A DNA stretch of 64,000 bases. Origin: an uncultured Fluviicola sp. (GTDB lineage Bacteria; Bacteroidota; Bacteroidia; Flavobacteriales_D; Crocinitomicaceae). The notes under the pieces are model-generated. The model saw only the letters and a list, made by a program, of their open reading frames with translations. It searched no databases and was not told where the DNA came from. This document shows, in pieces, positions 13,496 to 63,560 of this stretch. Where the stretch lies: positions 62,001-126,000 of the forward strand of contig CAJVYC010000007.1 of assembly GCA_913009205.1 (NCBI GenBank), in the 5' to 3' direction. Both the position numbers and the translations under genes were made by a program. Each line of letters opens with the position of its first letter. The stretch's first letter is position 1.

Positions 13496-15340
13496 ATGAG
13501 GAATTTAATTAAATTATTACCAGACAATATTGCGAATCAAATAGCCGCTGGGGAGGTTATTCAACGTCCCGCTTCTGTGGTGAAAGAAATTGTTGAAAAT
13601 TCTATTGATGCCGGCGCAACGAAGATTGACGTCAATATAAAAGATGCTGGAAAAACGCTCATTCAAATTGTAGACAACGGTCAAGGAATGGGACCTGAGG
13701 ACGCTGAGATTTGTTTTCAGCGCCATGCGACGAGTAAAGTTAGTAAAGCCGAAGATTTATTCGCTTTAATAACAAAAGGATTTAGGGGTGAAGCTCTGGC
13801 ATCTGTGGCCGCTATCGCTCACGTTGAATTAAAAACAAGAGAAAGAGGAAAGGACATTGGAACTTCAGTCACAATGGAAGGGAGTTCAATTAAAGAATCA
13901 ACTGAAACAACATGCCCAGAGGGCACAAGCTTCGAAATAAAGAACCTTTTTTACAACGTTCCAGCCAGAAGAAATTTCTTAAAATCTGACAAGGTAGAGT
14001 TTGGACATATCACGGATGAGTTTGAACGCGTAGCCCTATCACATCCTGAGATTCATTTCACGTTACATCACAATGACAATGAACTTTACAACCTTCAAGA
14101 CACGATTTTAAAGAAACGAATCATTGATGTCCTAGGAAAAAAATCAAGCGATCGATTGGTTCCAATTGAGGAAAGCACTGAAATCGTTGAAATGAAGGGA
14201 TTCGTTCTCAAACCAGAGTTTTCTCGAAAAACACGCGGTGATCAATTCTTATTTGTAAACAACAGATATTTCAAAAGCCATTACTTCAATCACGCTGTTA
14301 ACAAGGCATTTGAGGGACTTATCAAAGAAAGAACCTTTCCAGGATTCTTCTTGTATTTGGATGTTGATCCCAAACGAATTGATGTTAACGTTCATCCAAC
14401 GAAAACGGAAATTAAATTCGAAGAAGAAAAATACATTTACTCCATCATATTGAGTAGCATTCGCCTAGCACTTGGTAAATACAACATTGCTCCAACACTG
14501 GACTTTGAAAGAGAAATGGGATTTGACATTCCGCACAAAATGCATTCTCAGCCCGCAACAGAGCCCACAATAAATATCAACAAGGACTTTAATCCTTTTC
14601 AAACGACATCGAATACGGCGAGTTCTTCTAGCGGAAAAACAACTGAAAACTTCTCTAAGGCGATTGTCAACAATGGCTTTGGAACAAAGGAGGCGAAACA
14701 AGAGGATTGGGAGAACTTTTACACAGTTGAAGATCAAAAGGAAGAAGAGGTTCAAGAGCTTGTAGAAGTTGAGTCAATTGATGAAAATATTACGAGTTTT
14801 ATTGTAAAAGGAAACTACATTTTATCTCCAAGTAAGTCTGGATTAATGGTGATTCATTCAAAAAGAGCAGTTGAACAAATAGTTTACTCAGGAATAATTA
14901 AATCATTTATTTCCAGCCCCATAGAATCTCAAAAAATGCTATTTCCAATCGAAAAAGAACTTTCAAAAAAGGAAATCATTAATTGGGAAATGAATGCGTC
15001 AATGCTAAAGCAATTGGGCTTTGACGGAACAGTTGAAAGCGACATATTGTCTGTCAGCGCGGTTCCAAATGTACTCGAAGAAGAAACACTGTCAAGCACT
15101 TTAGATTCTATCCTAGAAACGCTTGGACACAAGGATATTGAAAAGGGCGATATTGCGCATTCATTGGTGGCTTCTATTGCAAGATCAGCTGCAATGAAAC
15201 AATTGAATCTTAATTCAAATGAAGCGATTCAAGGTTTGATCAATCAACTGTTCCAATGTGAAAATCACATTTACACGCCTTCGAACAAAAAAATTATAGA
15301 TACCATCGATTTAGAGTCGATTGAAACAAAATTTAAATAA
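13496..15340 (+). CDS. mutL: DNA mismatch repair protein MutL, endonuclease motif degenerate
   Basis: MutL links mismatch recognition by MutS to strand removal. The N-terminal GHKL ATPase is intact: VVKEIVENSIDAGA, VDNGQGM, HATSKV and GFRGEALASV, followed by the second half with NVHPTKTEIKF. A polar linker (about 345-440) precedes the dimerisation domain. In MutLs with nicking activity that domain contains DQHAxxExxxE. Here the equivalent stretch reads MVIHSKRAVEQIVYSG, so the Asp and His metal ligands are missing, and the last motif is reduced to CENHIYTPSNKK. The protein is 614 aa, a normal length. Its stop overlaps the rhomboid ATG by one base. Confidence 0.95.
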   Translation: MRNLIKLLPDNIANQIAAGEVIQRPASVVKEIVENSIDAGATKIDVNIKDAGKTLIQIVDNGQGMGPEDAEICFQRHATSKVSKAEDLFALITKGFRGEALASVAAIAHVELKTRERGKDIGTSVTMEGSSIKESTETTCPEGTSFEIKNLFYNVPARRNFLKSDKVEFGHITDEFERVALSHPEIHFTLHHNDNELYNLQDTILKKRIIDVLGKKSSDRLVPIEESTEIVEMKGFVLKPEFSRKTRGDQFLFVNNRYFKSHYFNHAVNKAFEGLIKERTFPGFFLYLDVDPKRIDVNVHPTKTEIKFEEEKYIYSIILSSIRLALGKYNIAPTLDFEREMGFDIPHKMHSQPATEPTININKDFNPFQTTSNTASSSSGKTTENFSKAIVNNGFGTKEAKQEDWENFYTVEDQKEEEVQELVEVESIDENITSFIVKGNYILSPSKSGLMVIHSKRAVEQIVYSGIIKSFISSPIESQKMLFPIEKELSKKEIINWEMNASMLKQLGFDGTVESDILSVSAVPNVLEEETLSSTLDSILETLGHKDIEKGDIAHSLVASIARSAAMKQLNLNSNEAIQGLINQLFQCENHIYTPSNKKIIDTIDLESIETKFK

Positions 15341-16149
15341 TGTTTAGACAAATCTTTTCAAATATACCTGACGTTACAAAGAATCTTTTGCTAATAAACA
15401 TTCTCTTATTTATAGTGTCTTTGTTTCTTGCTCAATCTGGCTCTGGATTAGAAAACATACTTGAAGCGCATTATATCAACTCAACTTTTTTCCAACCCTA
15501 TCAGGCAGTTACTCATATGTTCATGCATAGTTTAACGGATCCGTTTCATATCATATTCAATATGTTTCTACTTGTTTCTTTTGGTAGTCATCTAGAGAGA
15601 ATCTGGGGAAGCAAAAGATATTTCATTTACTACATATCTTGTGGACTTGGGGCCTTCATTCTGTATAATGTAATCGGCGTATGGGAAATCTGGGAACTTC
15701 AAACTGAACTTAAAGCAGCCGGAAACGACATTCAATACATTAATCGTTTAATCCATGATGGTAAACTTGTTTCTGGCTCACAATTAAACCTAAAAGTTAT
15801 AAATGAATTAATCAATGCTGGGGAACTGAAACTTCCAAATGAGGTACACGATTCATTTAGAAAATATATTGCATATAACTATAGTAGTTTGGTTGGTGCA
15901 TCTGGCGCAGTCTTTGGTCTTTTAGCAGGTTTTGCAATGCTTTTCCCAAATACTGAATTAAATTTGATGTTCATTCCCGTTCCTATAAAAGCAAAATACT
16001 TAATTGGTGCCTACTTAGCATTTGAAGTCTACAGCAGTATTTATAATTCCAATGATCAGATTGCTCATTTGGCCCATGTAGGAGGGGCGATTGTAGGGAT
16101 AATATTTATTTTGTTTTGGCGCAGAAAAGACAGAGCTAACTTTTATTAA
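15340..16149 (+). CDS. Rhomboid family intramembrane serine protease (first of two)
   Basis: A 269 aa polytopic protease that cleaves TM segments within the membrane. The catalytic Ser is in VGASGAVFGLLAGF and the catalytic His is in IAHLAHVGGAIVG. Conserved MFMHSLTDPFHIIFNMFLL, equivalent to the HxxxN oxyanion region, lies in the second TM. A soluble insertion of about 70 residues (around 118-180) separates TM3 from the catalytic helix, as is usual in Bacteroidota. It overlaps mutL by one base and is followed 6 bases later by a second rhomboid. Confidence 0.92.
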   Translation: MFRQIFSNIPDVTKNLLLINILLFIVSLFLAQSGSGLENILEAHYINSTFFQPYQAVTHMFMHSLTDPFHIIFNMFLLVSFGSHLERIWGSKRYFIYYISCGLGAFILYNVIGVWEIWELQTELKAAGNDIQYINRLIHDGKLVSGSQLNLKVINELINAGELKLPNEVHDSFRKYIAYNYSSLVGASGAVFGLLAGFAMLFPNTELNLMFIPVPIKAKYLIGAYLAFEVYSSIYNSNDQIAHLAHVGGAIVGIIFILFWRRKDRANFY

Positions 16150-16155
16150 CCGAGA

Positions 16156-17052
16156 ATGCAGACACAAAGAACATTTATAGACGATTTAAAGCACCGCTAT
16201 AAGCATGGCGGAGCGCACATGAAGCTAATCTTCATTAATGTCATTCTATTTTTATTAATAAGAGTTGCATTAGTATTTGGCAAACTTTTGGAGGACGACG
16301 CGAACACAGAAATAGTTCTTCAATACATTTTTGGACTTTTCACCAGACCTTCTGAATTCATAACACATCCATGGGGAATATTCACATCGATGTTCGCACA
16401 TTTTGGGGCAATGCACTTATTGTTCAATATGATCTTCCTGTATTTTGCAGGAAAGCACTTTGAGCAACTATTCGGAGCTTCAAGATTGATTTACACTTAT
16501 TTAATGGCTGGTATTGCAGGCGGTTTGTTAGAGTTTTTAGCACATTTGGCATTCCCTGGCCTTCAAGACGTAGTAGTCATGGGTGCATCCGGCTCAATCA
16601 TGGGAATCTTCGTCGCAATTGCCTTCTATCAGCCAAATTTAGAAATCAGCTTTTTTGGATTTTTCAAACTTCGAATCATTTGGATTGCAGCAGCCTACAT
16701 TGTTTTGGATGTCATCAATTTAACAACAAATGATGGCACAGCTCATTTCGCTCATTTAGGCGGTGCAATTATAGGTGCGTTGTCCATTCAAAACATCCAC
16801 AGTACAAGTAACCTTATTACTGCCTCTCAAAGAATGATCGAATTTATAAGACAAATGTTTTCAAGACACAAACGTCCAAAACTAAAAATCGTCAGAGGTG
16901 AGCAAGTGCGTAAAATGACGGATGAAGAATACAATGAGAATGCTAAAGAGCGGCAAAAAGAGACGGATAGAATTTTAGATAAAATTTCGAAGTCCGGATA
17001 TGATTCTTTGAGTAAAAGGGAAAAAGATTTTCTGTTCAATCAAAGCAAATAA
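16156..17052 (+). CDS. Rhomboid family intramembrane serine protease (second of two)
   Basis: This 298 aa rhomboid has the catalytic Ser in VVMGASGSIMGIF, His in AHFAHLGGAIIG, and the HxxxN region in FAHFGAMHLLFNM. A cytoplasmic C-terminal extension of about 80 residues ends GYDSLSKREKDFLFNQSK, a conserved tail of flavobacterial rhomboids. It differs from the upstream paralogue by lacking the large luminal insertion. It overlaps the next gene by one base, so mutL, both rhomboids and the EEP protein form one translationally coupled unit. Substrates unknown. Confidence 0.92.
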   Translation: MQTQRTFIDDLKHRYKHGGAHMKLIFINVILFLLIRVALVFGKLLEDDANTEIVLQYIFGLFTRPSEFITHPWGIFTSMFAHFGAMHLLFNMIFLYFAGKHFEQLFGASRLIYTYLMAGIAGGLLEFLAHLAFPGLQDVVVMGASGSIMGIFVAIAFYQPNLEISFFGFFKLRIIWIAAAYIVLDVINLTTNDGTAHFAHLGGAIIGALSIQNIHSTSNLITASQRMIEFIRQMFSRHKRPKLKIVRGEQVRKMTDEEYNENAKERQKETDRILDKISKSGYDSLSKREKDFLFNQSK

Positions 17053-55891: not shown

Positions 55892-56728
55892 ATGGAAGGA
55901 AAAAAAGTTCTTATTCTAGAAGGTGGCGGATTCCGTACTGGCTTTACAGCCGGTGTTATGGATGCATTTCATGACAACAATCATCGGGACTTTGATGGAT
56001 ACATTGGCGTATCGGGTGGAACAGTAGCCATGTCTTACTTTCTGAGTGAGCAGCGTCATAAATACATTGATGCTCTCTGTCATCTGGTTAATGACAATCA
56101 TTTCATAAAAATGACGAGAGCTTTTAACAAAAAGGGAATCATGGACATTGACTATTTCCATGAAGTTTCAGGTACTATAATTCCTCTTGATTTTGACCTA
56201 GCCTTAAAAAACATCGAGGATAAAGAACTCATATTCGTGTTAACACATCGCAAAACCGGAGCGCCTTATTATTTTAGCCCTAGTCGAGATAATTGGATCA
56301 GTTCATCTATTGCATCTTGCACACTTCCCGTTTTAACGAAGGGAAAACATCACTTTGATGGTGATGACTATTTTGACGGTGGCTGGAGCGATGCCATTCC
56401 GGTAAAGTGGGCTTATGAAAATGGAGCCAAAGAAATCACTGTGGTACGAACGAAGCAAGTCAGTTATTTACAATCCAAATCAATTCTCAATAAACTAGCT
56501 GCTTTTGGCAGTCGAAAAAATGACGTTTTACGCGAAGTTTTCAATACAAATCATGAGCGGTATAATCAAACATTGGAATTCATGAACAATCCGCCCAAAG
56601 ATTTAATAATTCATCAAATAGCTCCTGATGAACCCCTTGCGTCAGGTGCATTGGCTAAAACGACTGATGAATTGTTAAACGATCACTCTATGGGTGTTAG
56701 GTTGGGAAATGCGTTTTTCGATAGGTAA
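55892..56728 (+). CDS. Patatin-like phospholipase family protein (first of tandem pair)
   Basis: A 278 aa acyl hydrolase of the patatin/RssA/YjjU type. The oxyanion loop is EGGGFRTGFTAGVMDAF, the nucleophile Ser is in IGVSGGTVAM, and the catalytic Asp is in DDYFDGGWSDAIP. There is no signal peptide or TM helix, so it is probably cytoplasmic. A close paralogue follows 164 bases downstream, with the same length and motif spacing. Substrates unknown. Confidence 0.9.
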   Translation: MEGKKVLILEGGGFRTGFTAGVMDAFHDNNHRDFDGYIGVSGGTVAMSYFLSEQRHKYIDALCHLVNDNHFIKMTRAFNKKGIMDIDYFHEVSGTIIPLDFDLALKNIEDKELIFVLTHRKTGAPYYFSPSRDNWISSSIASCTLPVLTKGKHHFDGDDYFDGGWSDAIPVKWAYENGAKEITVVRTKQVSYLQSKSILNKLAAFGSRKNDVLREVFNTNHERYNQTLEFMNNPPKDLIIHQIAPDEPLASGALAKTTDELLNDHSMGVRLGNAFFDR

Positions 56729-56824
56729 AGTATAAGACTAAAGAAGTTAGATTAAATACGATTGTTCATATTGATTTATAGCACTAGATAAAGCTAATCA
56801 ACTTAATATTTATATTTTCCATTT

Positions 56825-56842
56825 TAGGAATGAAATTTGAAT
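56825..56842 (+). repeat. 18-bp repeat upstream of patatin gene 2
   Basis: TAGGAATGAAATTTGAAT is identical to 55847-55864. A perfect -7 box TAAATTTG follows at 56853-56860, 32 nt before the ATG at 56893. Confidence 0.6.
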
Positions 56843-56892
56843 GTTAATACTGTAAATTTGTCAAATCAACCGAATACCCACTTCACTCATAA

Positions 56893-57735
56893 ATGAAAAG
56901 GAAAAAAACTCTAATTATCCAAGGCGGTGGATTCAGAACAGGATTTAGCACTGGAGTTCTGGACGCGTTTCAAAAAGAAAATTACAATGATTTTGATGTG
57001 TATCTCGGCATCTCTGGCGGTGCTATTGCACTCTCCTACTTTCTCAGCGAACAACGAGAAAAATGCTTCGAAGCAATGCGCATACTCGCTGTTGACAAAA
57101 ACTTTATCAGCTACTCTGGAATAATTAGCGCAAAAGGAATAATGAACATTGATTATTTTCATAAAGTTGCGGAGGAGTTGGTTCCATTCGATTTAGAGAA
57201 AGCGCTTTCTAATTCTGAAAACAAGAAATTGGGGATTGTTTTAACGAATCGATCAAATGGAATACCCAATTATTACCACCCAACAAAAGACAATTGGATG
57301 AATGTAGTTATTGCTTCTTGCACCTTGCCTTTTGTAACGAAAGGCCAACACGAAATCGATGGAGTCAATTACTTTGACGGCGGATGGGGCGACCCGTTAC
57401 CTGCTAGGTGGGCACATGAACTTGGCGCACGAGACATTACCATTATTCGTACAGCTCCAAAAGACATGAAGTTTACACAGTCTTGGCCTGATTATCTGGC
57501 ATCTTTTTACAATCGTAATGATCCGAAAATCAAAGATGTTTTTGAATCCAATCACCAGAGATACAATGACGCCATTAATTTTATCAATAACCCGCCAAAA
57601 GGATTGATAATTTCGCAAATTGCCCCAGAATCACCTTTAAGAGCTGGAACGTATTCGAATTCTATTGCGGCTATAACTGCAGACTACAAGTACGGATTGA
57701 AATGCGGAAAAGAATTTCTAAAAACCCTCATGTAA
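56893..57735 (+). CDS. Patatin-like phospholipase family protein (second of tandem pair)
   Basis: A 280 aa paralogue of the preceding gene. The oxyanion loop is QGGGFRTGFSTGVLDAF, the nucleophile Ser is in LGISGGAIALS, and the catalytic Asp is in VNYFDGGWGDPLP. The shared block MNIDYFHKVAEELVPFDLEK/MDIDYFHEVSGTIIPLDFDL and similar C-terminal NNPPKGLIISQIAPESPL/NNPPKDLIIHQIAPDEPL show duplication. It has its own promoter, so the copies may be regulated separately. Confidence 0.9.
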   Translation: MKRKKTLIIQGGGFRTGFSTGVLDAFQKENYNDFDVYLGISGGAIALSYFLSEQREKCFEAMRILAVDKNFISYSGIISAKGIMNIDYFHKVAEELVPFDLEKALSNSENKKLGIVLTNRSNGIPNYYHPTKDNWMNVVIASCTLPFVTKGQHEIDGVNYFDGGWGDPLPARWAHELGARDITIIRTAPKDMKFTQSWPDYLASFYNRNDPKIKDVFESNHQRYNDAINFINNPPKGLIISQIAPESPLRAGTYSNSIAAITADYKYGLKCGKEFLKTLM

Positions 57736-60955: not shown

Positions 60956-61561
60956 GTGAAAATTCCATCAAAACATATTGAAAACGCAGTTGATCAAATT
61001 GCATCCTTACCGGGAATTGGTCGCAGGACTGCTTTGCGGTTGGTTTTAAACTTAATGAATCGGAGCACGGAAGAAATAACGGACTTTTCTGAAGCCTTTT
61101 TGCAGATGAAGGAACATGTAAAAAATTGCATTACATGCGGCAATATTTCTGATGAAGAAACGTGTGAAATTTGCTGTAATGCGCGTCGTGACCAATCATT
61201 AATTTGTGTTGTTGAAGATATTAGGGATGTACTGGCAATTGAATCAACAGAATCTTACAAGGGCGTTTATCATGTTCTCGGTGGGATAATTTCACCAATG
61301 GATGGCGTTGGCCCTTCTGATTTAAATATTGCTTCTCTTGTTGAAAGAATTACGAATGGTGAAGTTAACGAAGTCATTTTTGCCTTAAGTGCAACGATGG
61401 AGGGTGATACAACAAATTTTTTCATTTACAAGAAACTGAGAGATTTCAATATAGAAGTTTCTACACTATCTCGTGGAGTGGCAGTAGGATCAGAACTTCA
61501 ATATGCGGATGAAGTAACTTTAAGTCGTTCTCTTTTAAACCGACAACCATTTGAAATTTAG
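60956..61561 (+). CDS. recR: Recombination protein RecR, GTG start
   Basis: RecR works with RecO/RecF to load RecA at gaps. The 201 aa protein has a helix-hairpin-helix (SLPGIGRRTALRLVL), a C4 zinc finger (NCITCGNISDEETCEICC), and a Toprim domain (ICVVEDIRDVLAIE, YHVLGGIISPMDGVGP). The GTG at 60956 gives the normal N-terminus MKIPSKHIENAVDQI and no ATG is better placed. A -7 promoter box lies almost touching the start codon. Confidence 0.96.
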   Translation: MKIPSKHIENAVDQIASLPGIGRRTALRLVLNLMNRSTEEITDFSEAFLQMKEHVKNCITCGNISDEETCEICCNARRDQSLICVVEDIRDVLAIESTESYKGVYHVLGGIISPMDGVGPSDLNIASLVERITNGEVNEVIFALSATMEGDTTNFFIYKKLRDFNIEVSTLSRGVAVGSELQYADEVTLSRSLLNRQPFEI

Positions 61562-61661: not shown

Positions 61662-62078
61662 ATGTTCAAAGAATATAAGAAGTTTATAATGACAGGAAAT
61701 GTCATTGCGGTAATACTAGTTGGAACAATTGGAGCCGTAATCAAAGGATTTGTAAGCTTTATTATTACACGAATAATAGGAATGTTCATCGGAGGGGCAA
61801 GTTTTGCAGAAAAATTTATAGAGTTATCTCCTAAAGTACCCGCAGTTCTTAATGACGCAGGTTAGGTAATTGAAAAAGCTATTCATGCAAATAATTTAAT
61901 GTTTGGGGCTTGGATTGATTCAATAATTAGTTTAATTATTGTAGGATTTCTTTTATTCTTAATTGTTAAGGCCTATAATAAAACTAAAAAGAAAGTTGAA
62001 GAGGCGCCAAAAGCGACACCTGTGAATACATTAGACCAAAATTTGCTCCTTGAGATCAGAGATTTACTGAAAAAATAG
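61662..62078 (+). pseudogene. mscL: Large-conductance mechanosensitive channel gene, interrupted by in-frame TAG
   Basis: The listed 67 aa ORF is only the first half of an MscL. It starts MFKEYKKFIMTGNVIAVILV (cytoplasmic helix and TM1) and stops at TAG (61863-61865) after VPAVLNDAG. The same frame continues VIEKAIHANNLMFGAWIDSI, ISLIIVGFLLFLIVKAYNKT (TM2) and ends LLLEIRDLLKK at TAG 62076-62078, 138 codons in all, the family length. One substitution from CAG, GAG or AAG would explain it. A TAATTTCG box lies 28 nt upstream of the ATG. Unless TAG is read through, no channel is made. Confidence 0.88.
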
Positions 62079-62192: not shown

Positions 62193-62789
62193 ATGCCTAG
62201 TATCTTTGTAGCCAAATTAGATTTCGGAGTTTCGGATGAGGAACTTACTTCTCTTTTTGAAGAATATGGAACAGTATCCAAAGCGCATATTGCGAAGGAT
62301 CGTGAAACAGGAAAGCCACGTGGTTTTGCTTTTGTCGAAATGTCGAATGATGAAGAGACAGATGCCGCAGTTAAAGGGCTGGATGGTCACACAATCAACG
62401 GAAGAGAAATTGTTGTCAAAATTGCCGAGGACAGAAGTAGTGGAAAACCAGCTCCAAGATCATCAGGTGATCGCCCGGTAAGATCAGATTCTAAACCTAG
62501 TTTTGCACCTCCTGCTCCTAAAAGTGACTCCCCTTTCGCAAACGATGTCGATGATTCATCTTCTTCTGATGCACCAAAACCAACAAAACGTGGAAAAGGA
62601 GTTGGAAAGAAAAAATCTGGAAGTGGTGGTGCTGATCGTCCTGATACTCGTGAGAACAAGATGTCTGCCTATAAGAAAAGTGGAAAAAACAATCGCGTTG
62701 AATTTGACGATGATGATGATTGGGAATTGGAATTCAAAAAAAGCCAAAAAGATGGCTGGAACGATGAAGAAGAAGAAGAAGAATTCTAG
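62193..62789 (+). CDS. RRM-type RNA-binding protein
   Basis: A 198 aa protein. The N-terminal RRM (1-80) has RNP2 IFVAKLDF and RNP1 KPRGFAFVEM. Then comes a low-complexity Ser/Pro/Asp/Lys-rich region with a basic patch (TKRGKGVGKKKSGSGG), and an acidic C-terminus ending NDEEEEEEF. Such proteins in Bacteroidota resemble cyanobacterial Rbp cold-responsive RNA binders. RNA targets are unknown. A strong consensus promoter suggests high expression; it is not coupled to other genes. Confidence 0.9.
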   Translation: MPSIFVAKLDFGVSDEELTSLFEEYGTVSKAHIAKDRETGKPRGFAFVEMSNDEETDAAVKGLDGHTINGREIVVKIAEDRSSGKPAPRSSGDRPVRSDSKPSFAPPAPKSDSPFANDVDDSSSSDAPKPTKRGKGVGKKKSGSGGADRPDTRENKMSAYKKSGKNNRVEFDDDDDWELEFKKSQKDGWNDEEEEEEF

Positions 62790-63156: not shown

Positions 63157-63556
63157 GGGGTCGTATTGGATTTGACAGCGATAGCGTTGTTAGGTGTAAG
63201 CATGTCGAGCAATGTGGTGAGTCTCGTTAAAAATTAGTCACAAACTATAATTGACAACACGTCATACAGACTTGCTGCCTAATTTGACTCAGTCGAATAA
63301 GGCTTAATCTCGTGGAATAATAGTACACAGACAAGTTCCCTCTCCTACCTTTCCGCCTGTTAATAGTAGGAACTAGAGGGACCAATCATTTCAGGATAGT
63401 GTTAGTGATACTTCTAAGCTAATGTGAAACTCAGAAGATAAGTTTAATTATTGGGTGTCTTTATCCGAGGTTAAATCGAAAATTAATTAAAGAATAAACA
63501 TGTAGAAAGCTTGATTATTCGTCGTTTGGACGAGGGTTCGAAACCCTCCGACTCCA
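63157..63556 (+). ncRNA. ssrA: Transfer-messenger RNA (tmRNA)
   Basis: The 5' end GGGGTCGTATTGGATTTGACAG and the 3' end GAGGGTTCGAAACCCTC followed by CGACTCCA form the tRNA-like domain. GGGGTCG pairs with CGACTCC (one G-U), and the discriminator is A. CCA is not encoded (genomic CTG follows). The 400-nt length is normal. The tag frame that ends in the classic LAA is the one reading GAC AAC ACG TCA TAC AGA CTT GCT GCC TAA, giving a tag ending DNTSYRLAA. The resume codon upstream of it cannot be fixed by eye. SmpB is encoded nearby. Confidence 0.96.
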
Positions 63557-63560
63557 CTGA

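Follow-up and report, generated by a model that had tools for sequence, protein, structure and literature searches.

Organization of the mscL locus

The window, a 64,000-nucleotide stretch of the draft genome of an uncultured Fluviicola sp. (assembly G000; 2.82 Mb in 37 contigs, 99% complete), contains on its forward strand an mscL frame (61662–62078) embedded in a recognizable set of neighbors. Upstream lies an intact recR (60956–61561), terminated by TAG and identified by Pfam, genus-wide search, and synteny as the conserved upstream neighbor of mscL in the genus; downstream are an intact gene for an RRM-domain protein (62193–62789; Pfam RRM_1) and the tmRNA gene ssrA (63157–63557; called by ARAGORN), which anchors the right-hand end of the locus in the genus. 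The closest named relatives of the RecR protein are Flavobacteriales assembled from metagenomes, several of them labeled Crocinitomicaceae or Fluviicola, which makes Crocinitomicaceae the likely family. In G000 and a related genome, G026 (L036), the RRM-domain gene separates ssrA from mscL or recR, respectively; in two other relatives, G015 and G018, ssrA stands close behind mscL and no RRM motif was seen in the stretch read. Two further gene pairs were observed elsewhere in the window. The region 15337–17052 holds two long frames (270 and 300 codons) in the same reading frame, separated by one TAA, which by eye appear to be two adjacent genes for rhomboid-type membrane proteins rather than one broken gene, and the region 55892–57735 holds two adjacent similar genes of ~280 codons that by eye resemble genes for patatin-type phospholipases.

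Read through its stop, mscL comprises 138 codons plus a terminal TAG; it starts MFKEYKKFIMTGNVIAVILVG, runs to LLLEIRDLLKK, and is uninterrupted in translation except for a single amber codon, TAG, at codon 68 (61863–61865), in the periplasmic loop that joins TM1 to TM2. The stop is plain in both sequence and translation, and the first-pass annotation of the two parts as MscL holds as well, with each half matching Pfam MscL (PF01741) independently (1.8e-9 for the first and 2.3e-11 for the second). Read through the stop, the sequence matches the PF01741 profile significantly over its full length (83.2 bits, positions 1–123, with one TAG inside), compared with 127–153 bits for the full-length mscL copies of the genus. 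Since the TAG precedes TM2, no uninterrupted frame contains both transmembrane helices, as that of a functional MscL does. The codons aligned to the TAG in relatives are all sense codons (GAT, GAC, AAC, AAT, AAA, GTT, and Ile or Val codons) and lie two to three changes away from it, so that the single base change originally proposed as the cause of the break is not demonstrated.

Further lesions and accelerated evolution of mscL

The same annotation had described the gene as otherwise intact, a description contradicted by a codon alignment with 14 same-genus relatives bearing intact mscL. A 12-bp in-frame deletion, with its junction at 61706/61707 between ATT (61704–61706) and GCG (61707–61709), removes four codons from TM1, Asp-Leu-Ala-Ile in relatives; the helix starts Gly-Asn-Val-x-(Asp/Glu)-Leu-Ala-(Ile/Val)-Ala-Val in the 14 relatives and Gly-Asn-Val-Ile-Ala-Val here. 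Of the claimed full-length, 138-codon MscL with both TM helices, the length of the frame stands, but TM1 is short of four residues. ATTG is present twice, 12 bases apart, in some relatives, and the deletion could have come from slippage between these repeats. Immediately after TM1, the clade-invariant Met-Met-Pro is replaced by Ile-Thr-Arg (61764–61772), and altogether 14 of 66 clade-invariant sites are changed, compared with 0–4 in each relative tested likewise. The C-terminal LLLEIRDLLKK is kept, as had been noted.

Alignment with solved MscL chains, with which a genus orthologue aligns end to end, places the deleted residues at Asp18-Leu19-Ala20-Val21 of the Escherichia coli protein. This segment holds the pore constriction of the MscL structure, in which Leu19 and Val23 have a role. 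Both halves of the G000 sequence belong to the same family as E. coli MscL; unlike the latter, however, the predicted product ends at a premature stop, lacks the equivalent of Asp18–Val21, and has lost Met-Met-Pro. Judged from its sequence, this product of 67 residues, in which TM1 is shortened and TM2 and the cytoplasmic bundle are missing, would not be expected to form a channel.

The rate of change points in the same direction as the lesions. When changes private to one sequence were counted with two others as reference, 29 changes at codon positions 1 and 2 of mscL fell on the G000 side, against 9 for G016 and 5 for G004 (chi-square calculated by hand, 10.5 and 16.9; p about 0.001 and 4e-5). 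In the recR control, the corresponding count was 14 for G000 against 21 (G016) and 12 (G004), which is not significant (chi-square, 1.4 and 0.15). Similarly, with the tree held fixed, the protein branch leading to G000 measures 0.33 for MscL and 0.15 for RecR, with whole-tree totals that are smaller for MscL (2.00) than for RecR (2.71). Amino acid-changing substitution is therefore accelerated in mscL and not in the neighboring recR. With synonymous sites saturated, a two-ratio codon model cannot tell relaxation from constraint along the G000 branch, but it rejects full neutrality over the whole of that branch; accordingly, the branch must have been mostly constrained and the decay must be recent, and we read this history as long constraint on mscL followed by recent release.

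The locus and other mechanosensitive channels across the genus and family

In most genus genomes with both genes on one contig, mscL begins ~65–136 bases past recR. The locus occurs in several states: intact, the G000 copy, a frameshifted relic (G015), and clean absence (G001, G014, G023, and G026). In G026, the nearest relative with a readable locus, mscL is gone, and recR is followed after 174 bases directly by the RRM-domain gene; in G014, G023, and G001, the tmRNA gene comes directly after recR; and in G027, a different gene follows recR and no mscL match was found. Gaps or fragmentation make G022, G003, and G009 uninformative at this position, including the nearest relative of all, G003 (RpsA 96%), in which the locus falls outside the fragmentary assembly. 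In a tree of RpsA plus RecR, broken or missing mscL is found in the G000/G003/G026 group (support, 94–100), in the G001/G015/G014/G023 group (98), and in the poorly placed G027 lineage, a distribution that amounts to at least two, and probably three, independent losses of mscL within the genus.

Like the G000 copy, the relic of G015 (L044/L069) is a broken mscL in the usual position downstream of recR, but it is more decayed, with frameshifts and several stops, and is independent by its position in the tree. Where the alignment has the TAG of G000, the relic carries TAA, with similar flanking codons. A stop inherited from a common ancestor is unlikely, as the two copies share only 65% DNA identity and the intact gene of G016 joins G000 before G015 does; because the gene tree places intact G016 between the two, coincidence appears likelier than shared descent. 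Should it be no coincidence, translation might end at this position by long-standing tolerance or regulation and not through plain decay, which we regard as highly improbable.

The G015 relic (L044) falls together with the long-loop MscL found in G004 and G016. Its neighbors in the species tree, G018 and G030 (L010 and L006), carry a short-loop MscL in this position, likewise linked to recR, which suggests that mscL has been replaced or exchanged at a fixed locus.

A PF01741 profile search of the G000 genome identified no second mscL, the presence of which had been raised as a point to check. A match of 22 bits at C1:27279–27458, below the cut-off and containing four stops, was rejected as a chance match of hydrophobic sequence lying between short ORFs. 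The genome retains three intact MscS-type genes, each with an open frame. Compensation by extra MscS genes was considered and rejected, given that G000 has 3 and the mscL-less genomes have 2–4, like the remaining genomes.

At the level of the family, 78 of 151 good-quality genomes have an MscL match and 73 have none; among the copies above the cut-off in the family search, only those of G000 and G015 are clearly broken. The large genus g43 was observed to have few mscL matches. In the studied genus, the state of mscL is weakly linked to genome size, with genomes that lack the gene being smaller on the whole (p = 0.013 when only absence is counted and 0.052 when the two broken copies are included, both uncorrected for kinship).

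Evaluation of alternative explanations

Collectively, these observations indicate that the G000 mscL is very probably a recently inactivated, decaying pseudogene: compared with the intact orthologues that occupy this post-recR locus in relatives, it carries disabling lesions and accumulates amino acid-changing substitutions faster. Some features sit less comfortably with decay, in that the frame apart from the TAG is open over its full length, LLLEIRDLLKK is retained, and the TM1 deletion is a multiple of three. The open frame would also be seen if the gene worked and the TAG were an error of sequencing or assembly, which would require one wrong base in a draft, multicontig assembly. Such an error, however, would leave unexplained the 12-bp TM1 deletion, the loss of Met-Met-Pro, and the 14 changed invariant sites, as well as the low Pfam score and the faster rate; these being further lesions independent of the stop, a single wrong base cannot be the whole story, and we consider this explanation improbable. 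A divergent but functional variant, in which a separate function falls to either the truncated 67-residue protein or a TM2 fragment re-initiated at an in-frame ATG, the twelfth codon past the TAG, would be consistent with the conserved C-terminal end. Yet, among 112 matching family genomes, no copy has the same form, apart from the G015 relic and a G005 copy that ends at a contig end, and relatives have cleanly lost mscL at this locus, which makes such a variant very unlikely.

The continuation of the open frame past the TAG and the alignment of this codon with a TAA in G015 could also be seen as signs that the amber codon is recoded or read through to yield full-length MscL, and the first-pass annotation had mentioned read-through, with suppressor tRNAs to be looked for. 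In this genome, TAG behaves as an ordinary terminator, ending recR, mscL itself, and 6 of the 46 nonoverlapping long ORFs of the window, and release factor RF1 (prfA) is present (484 bits, above the curated cut-off). No tRNA with a CUA anticodon was found among the ARAGORN calls on tRNA candidates (23 from the Rfam tRNA search and 21 places from an anticodon-to-T-loop pattern search), a detected set that is incomplete, lacking, for example, Ala and Ile tRNAs. Furthermore, the G015 copy is also frameshifted and is separated from G000 in the gene tree by the intact G016, and even a full-length product would still miss the gate residues of TM1. Read-through of the mscL TAG is thus unlikely, and the production of full-length MscL by this route extremely so. 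Of the three readings offered by the first-pass annotation, loss of the MscL valve is the one supported, with several lesions, no second mscL, and repeated loss in relatives now speaking for it.

Implications of the probable MscL loss

Under the pseudogene interpretation, selection to retain MscL would have relaxed because the cell could dispense with the channel, given its MscS-type channels, a habitat free of strong osmotic downshock, or both. Loss of MscL has been described in some organisms living permanently in marine habitats (review, PMC4005912), and so has the loss of mscL in Salinispora (PMC3314556). As in the present case, MscS-type genes are kept there, and other members of the wider group retain mscL; unlike in those cases, the loss in G000 is seen midway, while a remnant still occupies the locus. 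The suggestion that the loss of the valve would say something about the habitat of the organism fits the published marine losses, whereas the connection with genome size is weak, and the pseudogenization may possibly be linked to habitat. Our literature search found no paper on mscL loss in flavobacteria. The loss of MscL is ordinary gene decay, a kind of event already described.

The case illustrates that a stop codon that appears to be the lone lesion of a gene can hide a gene already far into decay. It also indicates that, within a single family of aquatic Bacteroidota, mscL could be dispensed with time and again, and the recR-mscL-ssrA locus, with its intact, dying, and lost states, offers a handy system for asking which habitats make MscL dispensable.
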